Origin: Rozella allomycis CSF55
Lineage: Eukaryota; Rozellomycota
Direction: 5' to 3'
DNA: 22,993 nt
Assembly: GCA_000442015.1 (NCBI GenBank)
Contig: KE560852.1
Span: 1-22,993, forward strand
The number at the start of each line of letters is the position of its first letter. Within the stretch, counting starts at the first letter, position 1. The position numbers were made by a program, and so were the translations under genes. A model generated the notes under the pieces. It was not told the DNA's origin. It saw nothing but the letters and a program-made list of their open reading frames with translations, and searched no databases. Shown piece by piece: positions 3,688 through 14,499 of the stretch.

Positions 3688-4900
3688 ATGCTAAAATGTT
3701 TAGAGTTTTTTAGTGGAGTAGGAGGTTGGGTAAAAATATTCCCTTCAAATAATAGCATTTAGCTTTAACTAAAGCAGGCCTGAAATTTGAGATTTTACAA
3801 GCGTTTGACATTAACGAAAACGCTAATCAAGTTTACGAATATAACTTTGGCATTAAACCATCTAAAGTAAAAAATAACTTTATATTCAAAGAGAAAATAA
3901 TTGATAGACTTACAGTCAATGAGCTGGAAAAATTAGCTGCCAATACCTGGTTAATGAGCCCATGTTGCCAGCCATTTACCCTGAATGGCACCAGACTTGA
4001 TGATAAAGATAATAGGTCGAAGCCGCTGCTTAATTTAATCGATATATTGGCAACTATTTCCAGCCCTCCTGGTTTCATCGCATTAGAAAACGTCCCGTTG
4101 TTTGAAGTACAATATTATTTACATCTATATTGAAAGGGCTCTAATTGTTGCAACAAACTAAAGACCACACTCAAATCACGGGGGTATTTAATCAAAGAGT
4201 ATATTGTTTCCCCGAAAGACATCGGAAATCCAAATGACAGAAAAAGATACTTTCTTGTAGCTTTAAACTCTGATTCAGAATTACTTCATCAAGATTTTCT
4301 GCCTCAAAGAATTGATCGTCTTCCCATGAAATGCCCAGAAATGATGAAACTCCGGGAGTTCCTGGATGTAGATGTNTGCTTTAAACTCCAATTCAGAATT
4401 ATTTCATCAAGATTTTCTACCTCAAAGAATTGAACGTCTACCAATGAAATGCCCAGAAATGATGAAACTCCGGGAGTTCCTGGATGTAGATGTTGAATAT
4501 GAATATTTTCTAACTCTTCCAGACGTCTCAAAGCTTAAGAACTTTCGCCATGACGTTGTTAGCCCCGAAAGTTCAAATTGCTCTACTTTTACGTCTTCGT
4601 ATGAGGCAAGGCATTTGAAGGGGAGTGGATCTATATTACAAACTAAAAATTTTGGTGTATGGTGTTATTTTGTTTTTTATGGAGTTTGAATTCGATAGAA
4701 CTAACCCTGATCATCTGATACACATCGGTGTACGACTTTTTACACCAAATGAGATAATGAAGATTCATGGTTACCCACCAGAATTTAAATTTCCAAAGCA
4801 AATATCTATCAAACAAATGTATAGACTATTAGGAAATGGATTGCATATATCATGTGTTTCAGAGGTCCTTCGGCATGCTGTCATGGAAAAGGAATCATAG
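3688..4900 (+). CDS. DNMT2: DNMT2-type tRNA(Asp) cytosine-5 methyltransferase
   Basis: Family role: methylates C38 in the tRNA-Asp anticodon loop using S-adenosylmethionine. Exons 3688-3729, 3756-4106, 4137-4656 (with a 116-bp duplication around the N at 4376) and 4685-4900 join over introns of 26, 30 and 28 nt. After collapsing the duplication the protein has 336 residues, typical for DNMT2. Visible motifs: FFSGVGGW-HLAL (SAM site, motif I, split by intron 1), AFDINENANQVYEYNF (motifs II/III), MSPCCQPFT (motif IV with the catalytic Cys), ALENV, NPNDRKRYFL (motif VIII region), GSGSILQT and YRLLGNGLH (motif X). Oddities: the usual Pro before the catalytic Cys is Cys, and the family's CFT motif appears as TFT. 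AATAAA lies at 4922-4927. Confidence 0.9.
4260..4493. repeat. 116-bp duplicated contig overlap around a single N, two divergent copies
   Basis: Bases 4260-4375 and 4378-4493 are the same segment of the DNMT2 coding sequence on either side of an N at 4376. I count 7 mismatches in 116, three of them changing amino acids (D/N, L/F, D/E). The gene only makes sense with one copy, so this is an unmerged overlap between contigs, probably from two alleles. Confidence 0.9.
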
Positions 4901-9397: not shown

Positions 9398-12300
9398 ATG
9401 AAAGATATTTCTAAAACAACCTTTCTATGCCCCAAAGAGGGAGCCCCGCTGTACATATACATTATGGCCGTTCTCGACGTGTTATATATATACTACCGAC
9501 GTCAATCTCTTCTTTTGCAAAACGAGTTGTCTATAGTATCCCTAGTATTGCTGGGAGCGGTGCATATAGTTTTGTACCTGAGCATGCATTGGAGCATAAA
9601 AATGCGTGTGTTATTCGAGTACAAAAAAGTGTCTTTGATAAAGGACGCGAGGTAATTTTAGGTATGTTTGGAGAGTAGATGTGTGTTTGTTGAGCCAGTG
9701 AAGCATCATGGCAAGTGTGAGATTGTTGAATTGAGACGCGGTGTATTGAGAGGCGAGGAGGTGCTGTATATGCGGTTTCAGGAGCGTAATTATGTGTATG
9801 GGCGTGAAGGGTTTGCGAGTCTGAAGATGCCTGTTGATATGAAGTTTGAAGAGTATGTTGGGAGTGAGGGGATTGACAGGGTGGAGGATTACGAGCTGTA
9901 TGGCNTGAGGGGATTGACAGGGCGGAGGATTACGAGTTGTATGGCGAGAATGAGATTCGTGTCAAGATACCAAAGTTCTGGGAGATGTTCAAGGAGCATG
10001 CTGTTGCACCGTTTTTTGTGTTCCAGGTGTTTAGTGTTGTGTTGTGGTAAGGAGATGAAAGGAGGTTGAAAGGATGTTTGATGAGTATTGGATATACAGT
10101 TTGTTTACATTGGTGATGCTGATAGGTAAGGATGCGAAGATTTTTTGAGAAAGGGTTTGAATCGACTGTTGTGTTTCAGAGGCTGAAGATGAAGCAAGAG
10201 TTTTCTGGGATGAAGAATGAGAGTTTTAGGGTGCTGGTGAAGAGGAGGGGCAAGTGGGTTGAGAAGGAGAGTAGGGAGCTGATACCTGGGGATGTGATTA
10301 GAATTACGGGGAGGGAGGAGGAGATGAAGAGTCCGTGTGATTTGGTGTTGGTTGAGGGGAGTGTTGTTGTTAATGAGGTGATATTGACTGGAGAGTCTAC
10401 GCCAATGTTGAAGGAGAATATTTTGAATAAAAAGGGGAGATTTGATATAACAAAAGATAAAGAGAATGTTTTGTTTGGAGGGAGTGAGATTATTTTGGGA
10501 GTTGGAGAAGAAATCAAGTGTTTTGTTTTACGAACAGGTAACAACTTTGCTTAGATTTTCAACAGGTAATGACTATAATATCCCCCATTAAAAGGGTATG
10601 AAACTAGCCAGGGAAGATTGATAAGAATGATGGAATTTCATTCAGAAAATGTGAATGTGAATAGTTATGAGAGTTTTATGTTTATTTTATTCTTGTTGAT
10701 GTTTGCAATACTAGCAGCGTATCATGTGTTTGTGAAGGGGATGGAGTATGATGAGAAGAGCAAGAGCAAGTTGATATTGGAGTGTTTGATGATTATTACA
10801 GCGGTGGTGCCACCAGAGTTGCCAATGGAGTTGTCGATGGCTGTTAATAATTCATTGATAGAGCTTTCGAAAAAGTTTATTTATTGTATGGAGCCATTTA
10901 GAATTCCATTTGGAGGCAAAATTGATGTTTGTTGTTTTGATAAGACTGGAACGTTAACTGAAGACAAAATGGAGTTGACTGAGATTATTGAATATAAAAG
11001 TAACAGTCTTAGTCACTTTGAAGTTAATTCAAGTAGTTTGAAGCCTACGTTGAAACCAACTACATCTAAACAATCTACTTCTACTTCTACGTCTACTTCT
11101 AAAACATCTACTTCTCCCACTTCACCTTCACTATCACTTATAGATTGTGTTGGTTGTTGTAATAGTTTGAAAAAGTTTAATAATAAAATAATTGGAGATC
11201 CAATGGAAGTTGAATTGATTGAGAAACTAGAAATTGATATTTCTAAAAATAAAATAATAAAAAGATTTAATTTTAATAGTGAAAAGAAGAGAATGGGTGT
11301 TCTAGTGGAAATCAATAAAGAAATCTATTTCATAGTCAAAGGAGCCCCTGAGATAATAAAGAGTATGATTAGTAATAACCCCAATAAACCAAATGAACCT
11401 CTGAGTGATTCTACTTCTACTAATACTACTAATACTAATTCTACTAATACTTCATCTAATTCTACCTCTTTTGATTCTGTTTATGAAGAGTATAAAAGGT
11501 TGGCTAAACAGGGGTATAGAATAATTTCATTTGGATTCAAGAAAATATCAAAAGAAATTAAAAATGTTTCTTCATTTGATCAAGAATATTTTGAAAATAA
11601 TTTAACATTTTCTGGCTTTGCTGTTTTTGATTGTAAATTGAAAAAAGATACAAAAGATGCAATTAACAATTTAAGAAATTCAAATCATTTTATTGTTTTA
11701 ATTACTGGAGATAATATTCTAACTGCAATTCATGTAGCCAAAGAATTAAACCTCAAAGGGTCCAACTATATTAAAGAATTCAAGGGGGTTGAAAGTGGAG
11801 TAGAAGGGGTTAAAAGTGGAGATAATGAAAGTGGAGAAGGTGAAAGTGGAGATAATGAAAGTGATGGAGTTGATACTACTAAAGTTGATACTACTAACGT
11901 TGATACTACTAAAGTTGATACTACCACAGTAGAGACTACTACAGTAGACGCTACTACTTCGTTGTCTCCCCCTACTACTTCTCCATTTACCTATGCAGTG
12001 ACGGGTGATACGCTTAATAAAATGTCACCAAGTCAGTTTGATAAATTGATTGATAAAATAATTGTTTATGCCAGAGTATCCCCTGAACAAAAAGAATTTA
12101 TTATTACAAAAATGAAAGAAAAAGGTTTATTCTGTTTAATGTGTGGTGATGGAACAAACGATGTTGGCGCTTTAAAGAAATCTCACATTGGCGTTTGCTT
12201 TGTTAAACGCTTCTGAAGATGATCTACAGAAACAACAATTGGCTCAGAAATCTATTCTTGTTAAAAAGCAAATAAATCAAATTAAATCTTTTGGTCAGAA

Positions 12301-13331
12301 AATGGGTTATTCTGATCAACAAATTCAATCTATCATTGATAAACAGAATTTAAATTCTTTTGATATAGACTATGAAGTGCCCATCATCAAACCAGGTAAT
12401 GTCTTGTAAAAATACTTTAATTATAGGTGACGCTTCAGCTGCCGCCCCGTTTACTTCAAAGTTGTCGTCTATTCAATCAGTTTGTCACATTCTAAGACAA
12501 GGTAGATGCACTCTCGTTACTACAATTCAAATGTACAAAATTTTAGCTTTAAATTGTTTAATCTCTGCCTACTCTATGACTGTCATGACTCTAGATGGTC
12601 TCAGATCTTCAGACTTTCAACAAACATTCGCAGGTATTATAGAATAGGTTTATTAATCTAGGTAATCAATTTNACATTCGCAGGTATTATAGAATAGATT
12701 TATTAATCTAGGTAATCTATTTCAAAAATTTGTAATTTAGGTATCATTTTGGCTTCTTCTTTTCTTTTTCTATCTCAGTCTAAGCCTCTAGATCAGCTGT
12801 CTATTTATAGACCTCCTTACAAGATATTTTCATTCTACTTTTTATCTTCTCTCTTGATTCAATTCGCTATTCACTTCTCTTGTTTATTTTATACTGTTTC
12901 TCTCGTCAAATCAATCTCTGGTCAATTAGATTACAATCTAGAAAGAAAATTCGAACCAAATCTATTAAACTCTTCAATCTTTCTTTTATCGCTCTCAATG
13001 CAAGTCTCCACCTTTCTTGCAAACTATCAAGTACACTTGTTTACCATTTATAATCAAGGGTCATCCATTTAGAGAATCAATCTCTGAAAACAAAAAATTA
13101 AGAAACTCTCTACTAGTAGCTGGATCAGTGGCATTCATTTGTGCATTGGAAATATTCCCAGATTTCAATAATGTAAATTACTTCTTTTAAATCAATCAGT
13201 GGCTGCAGATTGTTCCTTTTCCTGAATCTTTTAAATCTACTTTTGTTTTTATTCTTTTCTTTGATTTTATCGCCTGCTATCTTGTCGAGTATTTTTCCAA
13301 ACTACTCTTTTACAAAAGTCAAAATGTTTAA
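9398..13331 (+). CDS. SPF1: P5A-type ATPase (Spf1/ATP13A1), ER; one frameshift
   Basis: Family role: ER transmembrane-helix dislocase, formerly called manganese transporter. Nine exons are split by introns at 9652-9678, 10047-10072, 10126-10153, 10538-10594 (double), 12396-12426, 12684-12740 (double), 13031-13058 and 13173-13199. With duplications at 9905 and 12673 collapsed and the frameshift bridged, the product is 1186 residues, normal for Spf1. Motifs: [20 protein letters not shown] (actuator), PPELPMEL in TM4, [10 protein letters not shown] with the phosphorylated Asp, KGAPE (ATP binding), [29 protein letters not shown] and the C-terminal helices. At 12193-12196 GTTT should be GTT: HIGV then ALLNASEDD needs a one-base skip. 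Three Ser/Thr/Asn/Asp-rich inserts lie in the cytoplasmic loop. Start at 9398 is chosen because [14 protein letters not shown] aligns with the family's N-terminus. AATAAA lies at 13339-13344. Confidence 0.9.
9865..9945. repeat. 40-bp duplicated contig overlap around the N at 9905
   Basis: Bases 9865-9904 and 9906-9945 match except for two positions (GTGG/GCGG, GAGCTG/GAGTTG). Only one copy is compatible with the ATPase frame; reading through both shifts the frame. Confidence 0.88.
10538..10594 (+). other. Back-to-back double intron (28 + 29 nt) in the P5A ATPase
   Basis: The segment between RTG and YETSQG must be removed whole. It splits at 10565/10566 into two units, each starting GTAA and ending AG. 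Both donors sit in the context ACAG|GTAA, so removing the first unit recreates an equivalent donor for the second. Removing only one unit leaves a frame with a stop. Confidence 0.75.
11059..11115 (+). repeat. Ser/Thr microsatellite in the ATPase coding sequence
   Basis: ACT/TCT triplets repeat here (TCTACTTCTACTTCTACG and similar), encoding an S-T-S-T run between the phosphorylation site and the nucleotide-binding core. A related Asn/Thr/Ser-coding tract lies at 11407-11470. Such inserts are tolerated in loops of P-type ATPases. Confidence 0.8.
11869..11958 (+). repeat. Six 15-nt minisatellite copies coding V-D-T-T-x
   Basis: Six consecutive 15-nt units of the type GTTGATACTACTAAA run through 11869-11958, preceded by a second, Gly/Glu/Ser-coding repetitive part (11800-11868). 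They encode [25 protein letters not shown] and VDATT. The array lies just before the VTGDTLNKM segment of the P domain, in frame. Confidence 0.85.
12624..12722. repeat. 49-bp duplicated contig overlap around the N at 12673
   Basis: Bases 12624-12672 and 12674-12722 match with two differences. They hold the end of an exon (TFAG) and most of the double intron, so the intron is interrupted in the left copy and complete only in the right copy. Confidence 0.88.
12684..12740 (+). other. Second back-to-back double intron (28 + 29 nt) in the P5A ATPase
   Basis: Between TFAG and IILASSF, 57 nt must be removed. They divide at 12711/12712 into a GTATTA...CTAG unit and a GTAATC...TTAG unit. Retaining either unit brings in a stop codon. 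The junction reads CTAG|GTAA. Confidence 0.75.
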
Positions 13332-13514
13332 TACTGAAAATAAATTCACATTAAATNACATTAAATTATTTTTTTCAAATATTTAAATCATGTAAATTAT
13401 GCAAATTATTTTTAAATATTTTATTCTATTTCACGCTTATCGGCCTATTTATATCGTTATCATCTTTTTATCATCCACAAACTTAGCCACTAATATCAAA
13501 TCAAAAAATTACTA
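13332..13514. other. Gap between the ATPase and the FNT transporter
   Basis: AATAAA at 13339-13344 serves the ATPase. A 9-bp duplication (ACATTAAAT) flanks the N at 13357. The rest is AT-rich leader of the FNT gene, with AAACTTAGCCAC 25 nt before its start. No gene seen. Confidence 0.6.
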
Positions 13515-14499
13515 ATGACTGACCTCGAAAGTCAAAAACCAGCATCAAATGACCCCTTTATTAACTTCATTACTCCCCCACAAACATACAACAACCAACA
13601 CGACACTGTAGAACTACTATTCAAAAACGCAATCGGCAAATGCTCCTACAGCCCACTAGTCACACTCATCAACGGATTCCTCGCAGGTAAATATTTTCCG
13701 GTTAATTATTCAGGCATCTTTGTAGCAACAGGCGGCTTCTTCTCCATCATCGTCGGGGGTGGTTTCGACCCTAGTTTCAGCGCACTGTATCCAGCCGTGC
13801 CAAAGGTAACACATAATTGACACTCCACAACTAGGTATCCATAAATAACATTCGATATAATAGGTTACTGGTGGATTCGCATTTTCACTCGCGCTCATCC
13901 TCATTGTCTTTCTTGGCGGCGAACTGTTCACCGGAAATACAATGGTCCTCGCCCTCGGCTTGTTCGGCCGCCGGGTCAGCTACAAAAAAGTACTCATCAA
14001 TTGGCCGCTCGTGCTGCTCGGTAATGTCGCCGGGTGTATTTTCATGGCGTACTTTTTCGGCTACCTCACTGAAATCTTCAAAATGGATCCCTTCCTAACG
14101 TAAAACAAAACAATCCATTTAATCAAGGTACCTCGTGCATCTTACTGAAAAGAAGTGCAGGCTCGCCGTCCACGTCATCTTTCTCAGAGCGATTCCAGCG
14201 AATGCACTCGTTTGCATGGCGATCGTGCTCGGTACCGCGTCGAGAGACCTGACGGGAAAGTTTTTGGCGCTCGTGTTTCCCGTCGTGGCGTTTGCGGCGA
14301 TTGGGTTCGAGCATTCGATTGCAAACTCGTTTTATCTGTCGCAAGGTATGGTGTTTCGTTGAATGTTGTAGGTTGGATGTATGGCGCGGATGCAGAGGGC
14401 GCGTTTGTAAATTTCTTTGTCGCTCTGCTGGGGAATATTGTTGGAGGCGCACTGTTTGTCGCCGGGTCGCAGTATTTCATTTACAAGAATTCACATTGA
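13515..14499 (+). CDS. Formate/nitrite transporter family channel
   Basis: Pentameric plasma-membrane channel for small monovalent anions such as formate, nitrite or lactate. Five exons join over introns at 13687-13713 (27), 13806-13863 (double, 58), 14100-14127 (28) and 14346-14371 (26), giving 281 residues. Visible in order: cytoplasmic N-terminus of about 45 residues, TM1 with NGFLAGIFVATGG, TM2 with VFLGGELFTGN (Omega-loop region), the C-terminal half with FLRAIPANALVCMAI, and GFEHSIANSFY with the central pore His. The usual NWLV after TM4 is NALV, a Trp to Ala change. Codons end in G or C much more often than in neighbouring genes, which could reflect strong expression or acquisition from elsewhere. 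The gene is convergent with PEX1. AATAAA is at 14519-14524. Confidence 0.9.
13806..13863 (+). other. Back-to-back double intron (29 + 29 nt) in the FNT gene
   Basis: The segment between AVPK and VTGGFAF splits at 13834/13835 into GTAACA...CTAG and GTATCC...ATAG, each 29 nt. Keeping the first unit alone gives a TGA stop; keeping the second alone shifts the frame. The following exon also begins with GT. Confidence 0.75.

Follow-up and report, generated by a model that had tools for sequence, protein, structure and literature searches.

Tandem arrays of complete minimal introns in Rozella allomycis as putative intron minisatellites

Intron gain is a long-standing open problem. Ratchet-point recursive splicing in Drosophila, as described in excerpts of the literature, takes place in long introns and requires a cryptic RS-exon (PMC8605326). 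Stwintrons are nested spliceosomal introns of fungi in which a splice element is split (PMC7138796, PMC8469720, PMC9024468); in the excerpted account of 117 stwintrons, AG upstream and GT downstream together were not found (PMC9024468). The mirages of amphioxus are duplicated exon-intron boundaries with units of 10-160 bp, and RT-PCR suggests that regular splicing is undisturbed by them, according to the available part of that report (PMC3087553). The human UBC gene carries dual-specific splice sites in a repeat unit that codes for ubiquitin, so that its isoforms are described, in the excerpt, as differing in protein (PMC10809524). In Cryptococcus CNN00420, introns were gained by repeat expansion within a repetitive region of a single gene, and zero-length exons are absent from the excerpted description (PMC2395259). 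The available part of a survey that includes Rozella gives 2.5 introns per kb and makes no mention of tandem, short or adjacent introns (PMC8476143). Among the literature matches listed, which are partial texts, no description of arrays of abutting complete spliceosomal introns was found, and this is weak evidence of absence.

The window, that is, the whole stretch of DNA analyzed here (22,993 nt; contig KE560852.1, or C70), belongs to the genome of Rozella allomycis CSF55, which comprises 9.97 Mb in 213 contigs. Within a gene for a P5A-type ATPase, 57 nt at 10538-10594 divide into 28 and 29 nt at an inner AG|GT (10565/10566), and both sequence and coordinates are as given in the first-pass annotation (Table 1). 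The outer context ACAG|GTAA is repeated inside, as was also pointed out there, in the form of two copies of ACAGGTAA. Both halves start with GTAA and end with AG and score close to the lower third of 286 single introns, which bears out the claim that each has normal length and ends. The joint reads ACAG|GTAATG, and the zero-length exon falls between 10565 and 10566, inside the inner copy of ACAGGTAA. It had been proposed that excision of the first half recreates a donor; such a step is unnecessary because the second donor, GTAATG, is already complete before any splicing, and either order of removal is possible. Judged from its sequence, 10538-10594 very likely represents two complete and independent minimal spliceosomal introns with a zero-length exon between them, and belongs to a class of tandem arrays of 2-6 units that would be excised singly. 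In particular, the anatomy, the length statistics and the many longer arrays in the same genome speak strongly for two abutting introns separated by a zero-length exon; the doublet is one of many tandem intron arrays there rather than a lone curiosity.

These arrays resemble recursive splicing and zero-nucleotide exons in their juxtaposed AG|GT and in their presumed piecewise removal. An acceptor is directly followed by a donor, as in recursive splicing, at the inner joints of all three doublets found in the window (AG|GTAATG at 10565/10566, AG|GTAATC at 12711/12712 and AG|GTATCC at 13834/13835). Unlike Drosophila ratchet points, however, the Rozella pieces are whole introns of approx. 28 nt (28-29 nt in the window) that stand up to six in a row; they leave no room for a cryptic exon, and there is no long host intron. 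The arrays share with the amphioxus mirages minisatellite-like repeats that carry AG/GT signals, and mirage haplotypes, in the excerpted report, also differ in repeat number (6 versus 3; PMC3087553), but the amphioxus repeats are not each an intron. As in UBC, tandem AGGT sites could be used as donor or acceptor, and expansion of the UBC repeat has been proposed, in the part available, to create introns (PMC10809524); in Rozella, by contrast, none of the units is coding, and the protein would be the same whichever route was taken. The likeness to CNN00420 lies in new introns that arise through duplication of a repeat unit.

Table 1. Coordinates of the genes, introns and repeats discussed for the window
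Feature	Position	Strand	Remarks
P5A-type (Spf1/ATP13A1) ATPase gene	9398..13340	+	3' end set by eye
ATPase single introns	9652-9678, 10047-10072, 10126-10153, 12396-12426	+	
ATPase doublet 1, unit 1, 28-nt intron GTAACAACTTTGCTTAGATTTTCAACAG	10538..10565	+	GT..AG; splice-site score at 30th percentile of 286 single introns
ATPase doublet 1, unit 2, 29-nt intron GTAATGACTATAATATCCCCCATTAAAAG	10566..10594	+	GT..AG; 32nd percentile of 286 single introns
Direct repeat ACAGGTAA, outer copy (exon end and unit 1 donor)	10534..10541	+	
Direct repeat ACAGGTAA, inner copy (unit 1 acceptor and unit 2 donor)	10562..10569	+	
ATPase doublet 2, unit 1, 28 nt, copy after N	12684..12711	+	Gapless over junction versus PDB 9jbr
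ATPase doublet 2, unit 2, 29 nt	12712..12740	+	Junction of doublet 12684-12740 gapless versus 9jbr
Doublet 2, second (haplotype) copy; unit 1 whole, unit 2 interrupted by N at 12673	12634..12672	+	
Formate/nitrite transporter gene	13515..14499	+	
Transporter single introns	13687-13713, 14346-14371 (both by eye), 14100-14127	+	
Transporter doublet, unit 1, 29 nt	13806..13834	+	Gapless at junction versus LCIA 9v2a; P0121 joins same exons
Transporter doublet, unit 2, 29 nt	13835..13863	+	Junction of doublet 13806-13863 gapless versus LCIA 9v2a

The coding sequence of the ATPase is continuous once both halves of doublet 1 are removed. Joining 10537 to 10595 leaves no gap at the junction in an alignment with the P5A ATPase 6xmp (E 6e-72), in which the yeast protein has a 12-residue insertion a few residues before the junction. 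Retention leads to a stop past the junction, after 5 codons for the first half, 8 for the second and 5 for both. The ATPase exon matches best to ROZALSC1DRAFT_16974 of R. allomycis CSF55 (83% identity over 71% of the query), from which it differs at only a few residues outside Ser/Thr-rich stretches that are missing from the annotated protein. In the annotated Rozella proteins P0001 (ATPase) and P0121 (transporter), moreover, the exons on either side of the doublets are connected in the predicted way. Near-identical named proteins of this kind identify the genome as that of R. allomycis (Rozellomycota).

Several further features of the window were observed. Ser/Thr-rich low-complexity insertions of the ATPase lie at 11020-11140, 11400-11480 and 11790-11990; the first two are missing from P0001, which stops before the third, and these insertions are either variable or annotated as introns. 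Two apparent one-letter frame shifts in homopolymer runs of the same gene, seen by eye at 12190-12202 and 13058-13066, are likely sequencing errors. The N at 4376, 6033, 9905 and 12673 mark joins with overlapping near-identical copies at which reading frames are broken, apparently two haplotypes assembled end to end.

Two further doublets lie in the window, one in the ATPase gene and one in a transporter gene. The copies of doublet 2 on either side of the N are identical at 47 of 49 overlapping nucleotides, and both are doublets. The predicted transporter equals the annotated R. allomycis protein at every residue in common, and the annotated model lacks four residues at the first, single intron. 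Retention of one half at these two doublets brings a stop in three of four cases; the second half of the transporter doublet, kept alone, leaves the frame open across the 100 nt read. By splice-site score, the six halves of the three doublets lie at the 7th-60th percentile of the 286 single introns and outscore 83-97% of the GT..AG stretches that are 26-31 nt long.

Longer arrays were read in ten stretches picked from the pattern lists described below, a selection on AG|GTA that biases flank counts, though less so for long arrays. Genes were called with a home-made semi-Markov gene finder, whose models were checked by homology at the sites named here and whose unit counts sometimes fall short of the full chain; array calling allowed introns up to 260 nt. 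After two of the 31 arrays called had been dropped (N or a long piece), 29 clean arrays remained, including the three doublets of the window. They hold 96 units in 10 doublets, 7 triplets, 6 arrays of four, 5 of five and 1 of six, and all 96 units measure 26-31 nt under a clean-unit filter of 24-33 nt. Four pieces longer than 33 nt occur in the ten array loci: one is the six-unit chain described next, one is a chain whose three units, all intact, were merged with coding sequence, and two cross an N. Some further chains were merged or missed by the gene finder. Read directly, the array at 2605-2784 on the reverse strand of locus L024, in the gene for a glycogen debranching enzyme, has six units of 31, 31, 28, 31, 28 and 31 nt, and at L030, five GTA..AG units are seen directly without a gene model.

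Chains of 3-6 abutting introns occur in genes for topoisomerase II, PRP8, SMC6 and the glycogen debranching enzyme and in a Sec7 gene. At six array sites compared with solved proteins, the protein is restored once the whole chain is removed. In particular, topoisomerase II aligns with 6ca8 (E 3e-106) without gaps at the array junctions MTDQ|DHDGSH, YYK|GLGTST and FVG|SNNINLL, and PRP8 is gapless over 169 residues against 6qw6 (E 3e-101) at TTDNM|SIYPSP, across four units. The SMC6 junction KRK|GVRSLSGGEKSFSTVC, which spans five units, adjoins a 2-residue gap in the alignment with 9lwi (E 3e-19), and the debranching enzyme matches 11tn (E 1e-36) at SLAA|GLPHFAIRHMRCWGRD, across four units. The Sec7 gene (L023) was identified from its domain (PF01369, E 3e-62); its array at 1658-1833 is among those of five or six units, as are the arrays of SMC6 (L025) and of the debranching enzyme (L024).

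Three array sites drew separate attention. PRP8, itself a core splicing protein, has its four-unit array at L028, reverse strand, 1069-1361, and the units differ between two copies. At L023:689-794, the sequence after the last called unit starts with GTAAACTCTACAAACTCTAATTCAA, resembles the preceding unit GTAAACTCTACAACTTTAACTCAACAAG and by eye is open into the next exon; it may be a unit that has become exonic or an intron in the making from coding sequence. The debranching-enzyme array at 389-518 on the reverse strand of L024 seems, by eye, to end in an 18-nt piece, GTAAAAATAGCGTAACAG, with the frame kept, and this could reflect a very short intron, a 45-nt intron or a sequence error.

Units within an array are often alike. 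Neighboring units have a mean interior identity of 0.678, and 27 of 67 neighbor pairs, in 17 of the 29 arrays, reach at least 0.7. Identity falls with distance in the array, to 0.564 two apart, 0.540 three apart and 0.534 four apart, and is 0.527 for units of different loci (0.8% of 3,476 pairs at or above 0.7) as well as for neighbor pairs with one partner shuffled (0.65% of 2,000). At L023, 12 of 16 Tandem Repeats Finder rows have a period of 28-31; the units at C118 follow the order A-B-A-B, and C134 has two identical neighbors. In the window, interior identity is 0.41 for doublet 1 and 0.58 and 0.65 for the other two doublets; none reaches 0.7, and duplication is thus not visible in them.

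Unit number and make-up also differ between copies of one locus. Overlapping copies are present at 57 of 90 single-N joins, with identities of 0.93-0.98 at 40 of the 57 and lower values, down to 0.80, at 10; these copies are read here as two haplotypes, a reading based on the overlaps rather than on reads. Between the two copies of the MTDQ|DHDGSH array of topoisomerase II, unit number differs (three versus at least five), while the exon that follows agrees at 196 of 197 positions and the next single intron at 28 of 29. The debranching-enzyme copies have different unit types and an exon that agrees at 194 of 195 positions. In the Sec7 gene, where 44/44 adjoining exon bases agree, either copy contains at least five units, and the units are not of the same make-up. 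Similar neighbors and polymorphic copy number, by which minisatellites are recognized, are thus found in the array class and not in the window doublets (identities of 0.41-0.65).

These similarities suggest that longer arrays originated by duplication. The window doublets may be old duplications or insertions, and doublet 1 may stem from an old duplication or from a second intron that entered at AG|GT. The alternative that a second intron entered the AG|GT of an existing one, either as an introner-like element or by reverse splicing, concerns the origin only and is compatible with two introns; it is a possible but doubtful account. The copies of ACAGGTAA on both sides of unit 1 and the dissimilar halves of the window doublets are in its favor, and the arrays sit at AG|G junctions. 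Arrays of at least four units have AG before in 9 of 12 cases and G after in 11 of 12; for single introns of other genes the corresponding counts are 50 and 97 of 247 (p 7e-5 and 3e-4, respectively). A mobile family, however, is not apparent among the 29 arrays, since similarity across loci stays at the level of shuffled units and no introner-type family common to different genes was seen there; insertion also sits poorly with neighbors within an array that are often alike. AG...G flanks are moreover found around 15 of 39 single introns in array genes, some of which may be stray array units, versus 24 of 247 in other genes (Fisher p 2e-5).

Intron length bears on whether the 57 nt might be removed in one step. 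Stretches were fetched for the intron sample regardless of introns, with 195,835 b outside the window used; a first gene-finder pass, which called 64 introns, has been superseded. An untrained setting (weak donor model, any AG as acceptor, flat prior of 15-130 nt) gave a sharp peak at 26-31 nt and a scattered tail. The trained model called 237 introns in 218,828 b, 203 of them 25-32 nt long, and the final setting, applied to all loci, made 330 single-intron calls, of which 286 are N-free and measure 25-32 nt, under a length prior that favors 24-33 nt. Of the 330 calls, 43 lie above 33 nt (37 to 257 nt) and one below 24 nt, and 5 contain N. Rare longer introns may therefore exist among the 43 long calls, most of which are gene-finder calls alone. 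The range of 26-31 nt given in the first-pass annotation thus holds as a peak and fails as an absolute limit. Against this peak, a 57-nt intron is out of line and each half is ordinary.

That the 57 nt form one intron, removed in a single reaction from 10538 to 10594 while the inner AG|GT is unused or was used only formerly, is unlikely. Single-intron calls of 50-64 nt are few (four, all gene-finder calls), and none contains AGGT; moreover, if inner sites were idle, their decay would be expected in longer arrays, yet the array loci yielded 96 intact units and not one fused unit of 52-62 nt. That no decayed inner site was seen in any array read suggests that the outermost donor and acceptor are not normally joined in a single skip, although one-step removal would give the same mRNA and the exon joins of P0001 and P0121 fit one step and two alike. 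The gene finder divided on this point: under a heavier intron penalty, the trained model split doublet 1 only and called single introns of 107 nt at doublet 2 and 58 nt at the transporter doublet, whereas under a lighter penalty all three window doublets were split.

A nested twin intron, in which an inner intron would interrupt a splice element of the outer one, is highly improbable. With stwintrons, the Rozella arrays have in common two spliceosomal introns at one position, a presumed consecutive removal in two splicing reactions and their occurrence in fungi. Rozella introns, however, are complete and lie side by side; each unit is an uninterrupted GTA...AG with donor and acceptor unsplit. 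Of the two labels proposed in the first-pass annotation, that of a zero-length exon is kept, and that of a twin intron, in the nested sense, is not. In addition, AG precedes 24 and GT follows 18 of all 29 arrays, counts that are biased by the search pattern, versus the 117 stwintrons in which the combination was not found.

The signals of the single introns were also characterized. TTTAA is their most enriched 5-mer (74 versus 35.7 expected), and no clear branch-point motif was found in them, the positions of TTTAA being too scattered for a branch site. U2 snRNA was found in the genome (E 8.8e-30). Eliminated sequences of ciliates (IES) end in TA..TA. An IES-like elimination was considered for Rozella and set aside, as the ends are GT..AG, U2 snRNA is present and models are open under table 11 at the checked sites.

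Pattern counts describe how widely the arrays occur. In the window, AGGTA-N{21,26}-AGGTA-N{21,26}-AG matches four times, versus a mean of 0.02 in 100 shuffles, the four being three independent doublets and one second copy that crosses an N. Genome-wide, the doublet pattern has 163 + 173 matches versus 91 + 132 for the reversed control, and chains of overlapping matches in the list represent several successive introns. Three AGGTA marks at a spacing of 26-31 nt occur 82 + 91 = 173 times versus 4 + 38 = 42 for the reversed control, which is not zero and to that extent counts against reading the matches as arrays. At a spacing of 36-41 nt, matches number 0 + 0 (reversed shifted control, 4 + 32), and spacing thus carries the signal. 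A chance origin, in which an ordinary longer intron has AG|GT in its middle, would suit the dissimilar halves of doublet 1 but is barely conceivable beside four window matches where 0.02 are expected and 173 triple matches where the shifted spacing has none.

The first 100 of the 173 triple matches listed correspond, by eye, to 58 places on 27 contigs; in some cases two places are copies of a single site, and others may be due to chance. Strong clustering was observed at C101:19570-21556 and C101:151491-153813, which together hold 22 of these 100 matches. In the 195,835 b sampled outside the window without regard to arrays, 243 single introns and no arrays were called, and the arrays are thus clustered or local.

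Taken with the longer arrays, the interpretation preferred here is that of intron minisatellites, that is, chains of up to six minimal introns in which each would be excised separately, one joint would be made up to six times, and copy number would drift between haplotypes. This interpretation is probably correct; the heavier-penalty calls, the non-zero reversed control, the window identities of 0.41-0.65 and the prior of 24-33 nt count against it, as do the 43 single-intron calls above 33 nt and the lack of array calls in the sample outside the window. A short-intron spliceosome would meet each unit as a full intron that has a donor and an acceptor of its own. Once unit 1 is gone, ACAG|GTAATG would remain; once unit 2 is gone, the acceptor of unit 1 would stand before the exon. 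Units may be excised one at a time and in any order, every order giving the same mRNA, as would direct splicing of the outermost donor to the outermost acceptor. Since all routes would lead to the same mRNA, unit number would be invisible to the protein.

Gain and loss of units may proceed in the same way as in other minisatellites. AG|GT bounds every unit on both sides, so that slippage at the AGGT repeats, or unequal exchange between them, would add or remove whole introns and leave the protein unchanged; arrays would lengthen and shorten as minisatellites do. An intron flanked by AG...G has the same short repeat at both ends, and misalignment there could duplicate one spliceable unit. There is a fair chance that 'intron minisatellite' deserves to be a name of its own.

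If the interpretation as intron minisatellites is true, introns can be gained in a way that leaves the number of intron positions unchanged. Intron number is apparently changing now, between haplotype copies of one genome and at no protein cost, and the mechanism of the change would be visible in the sequence. For gene prediction and read mapping, such arrays are likely to be a trap. They may also serve as a natural test of how a spliceosome deals with touching introns of approx. 28 nt, in particular whether it skips units, which unit it removes first, and whether removal of 57-180 nt in one step is barred by a length limit.
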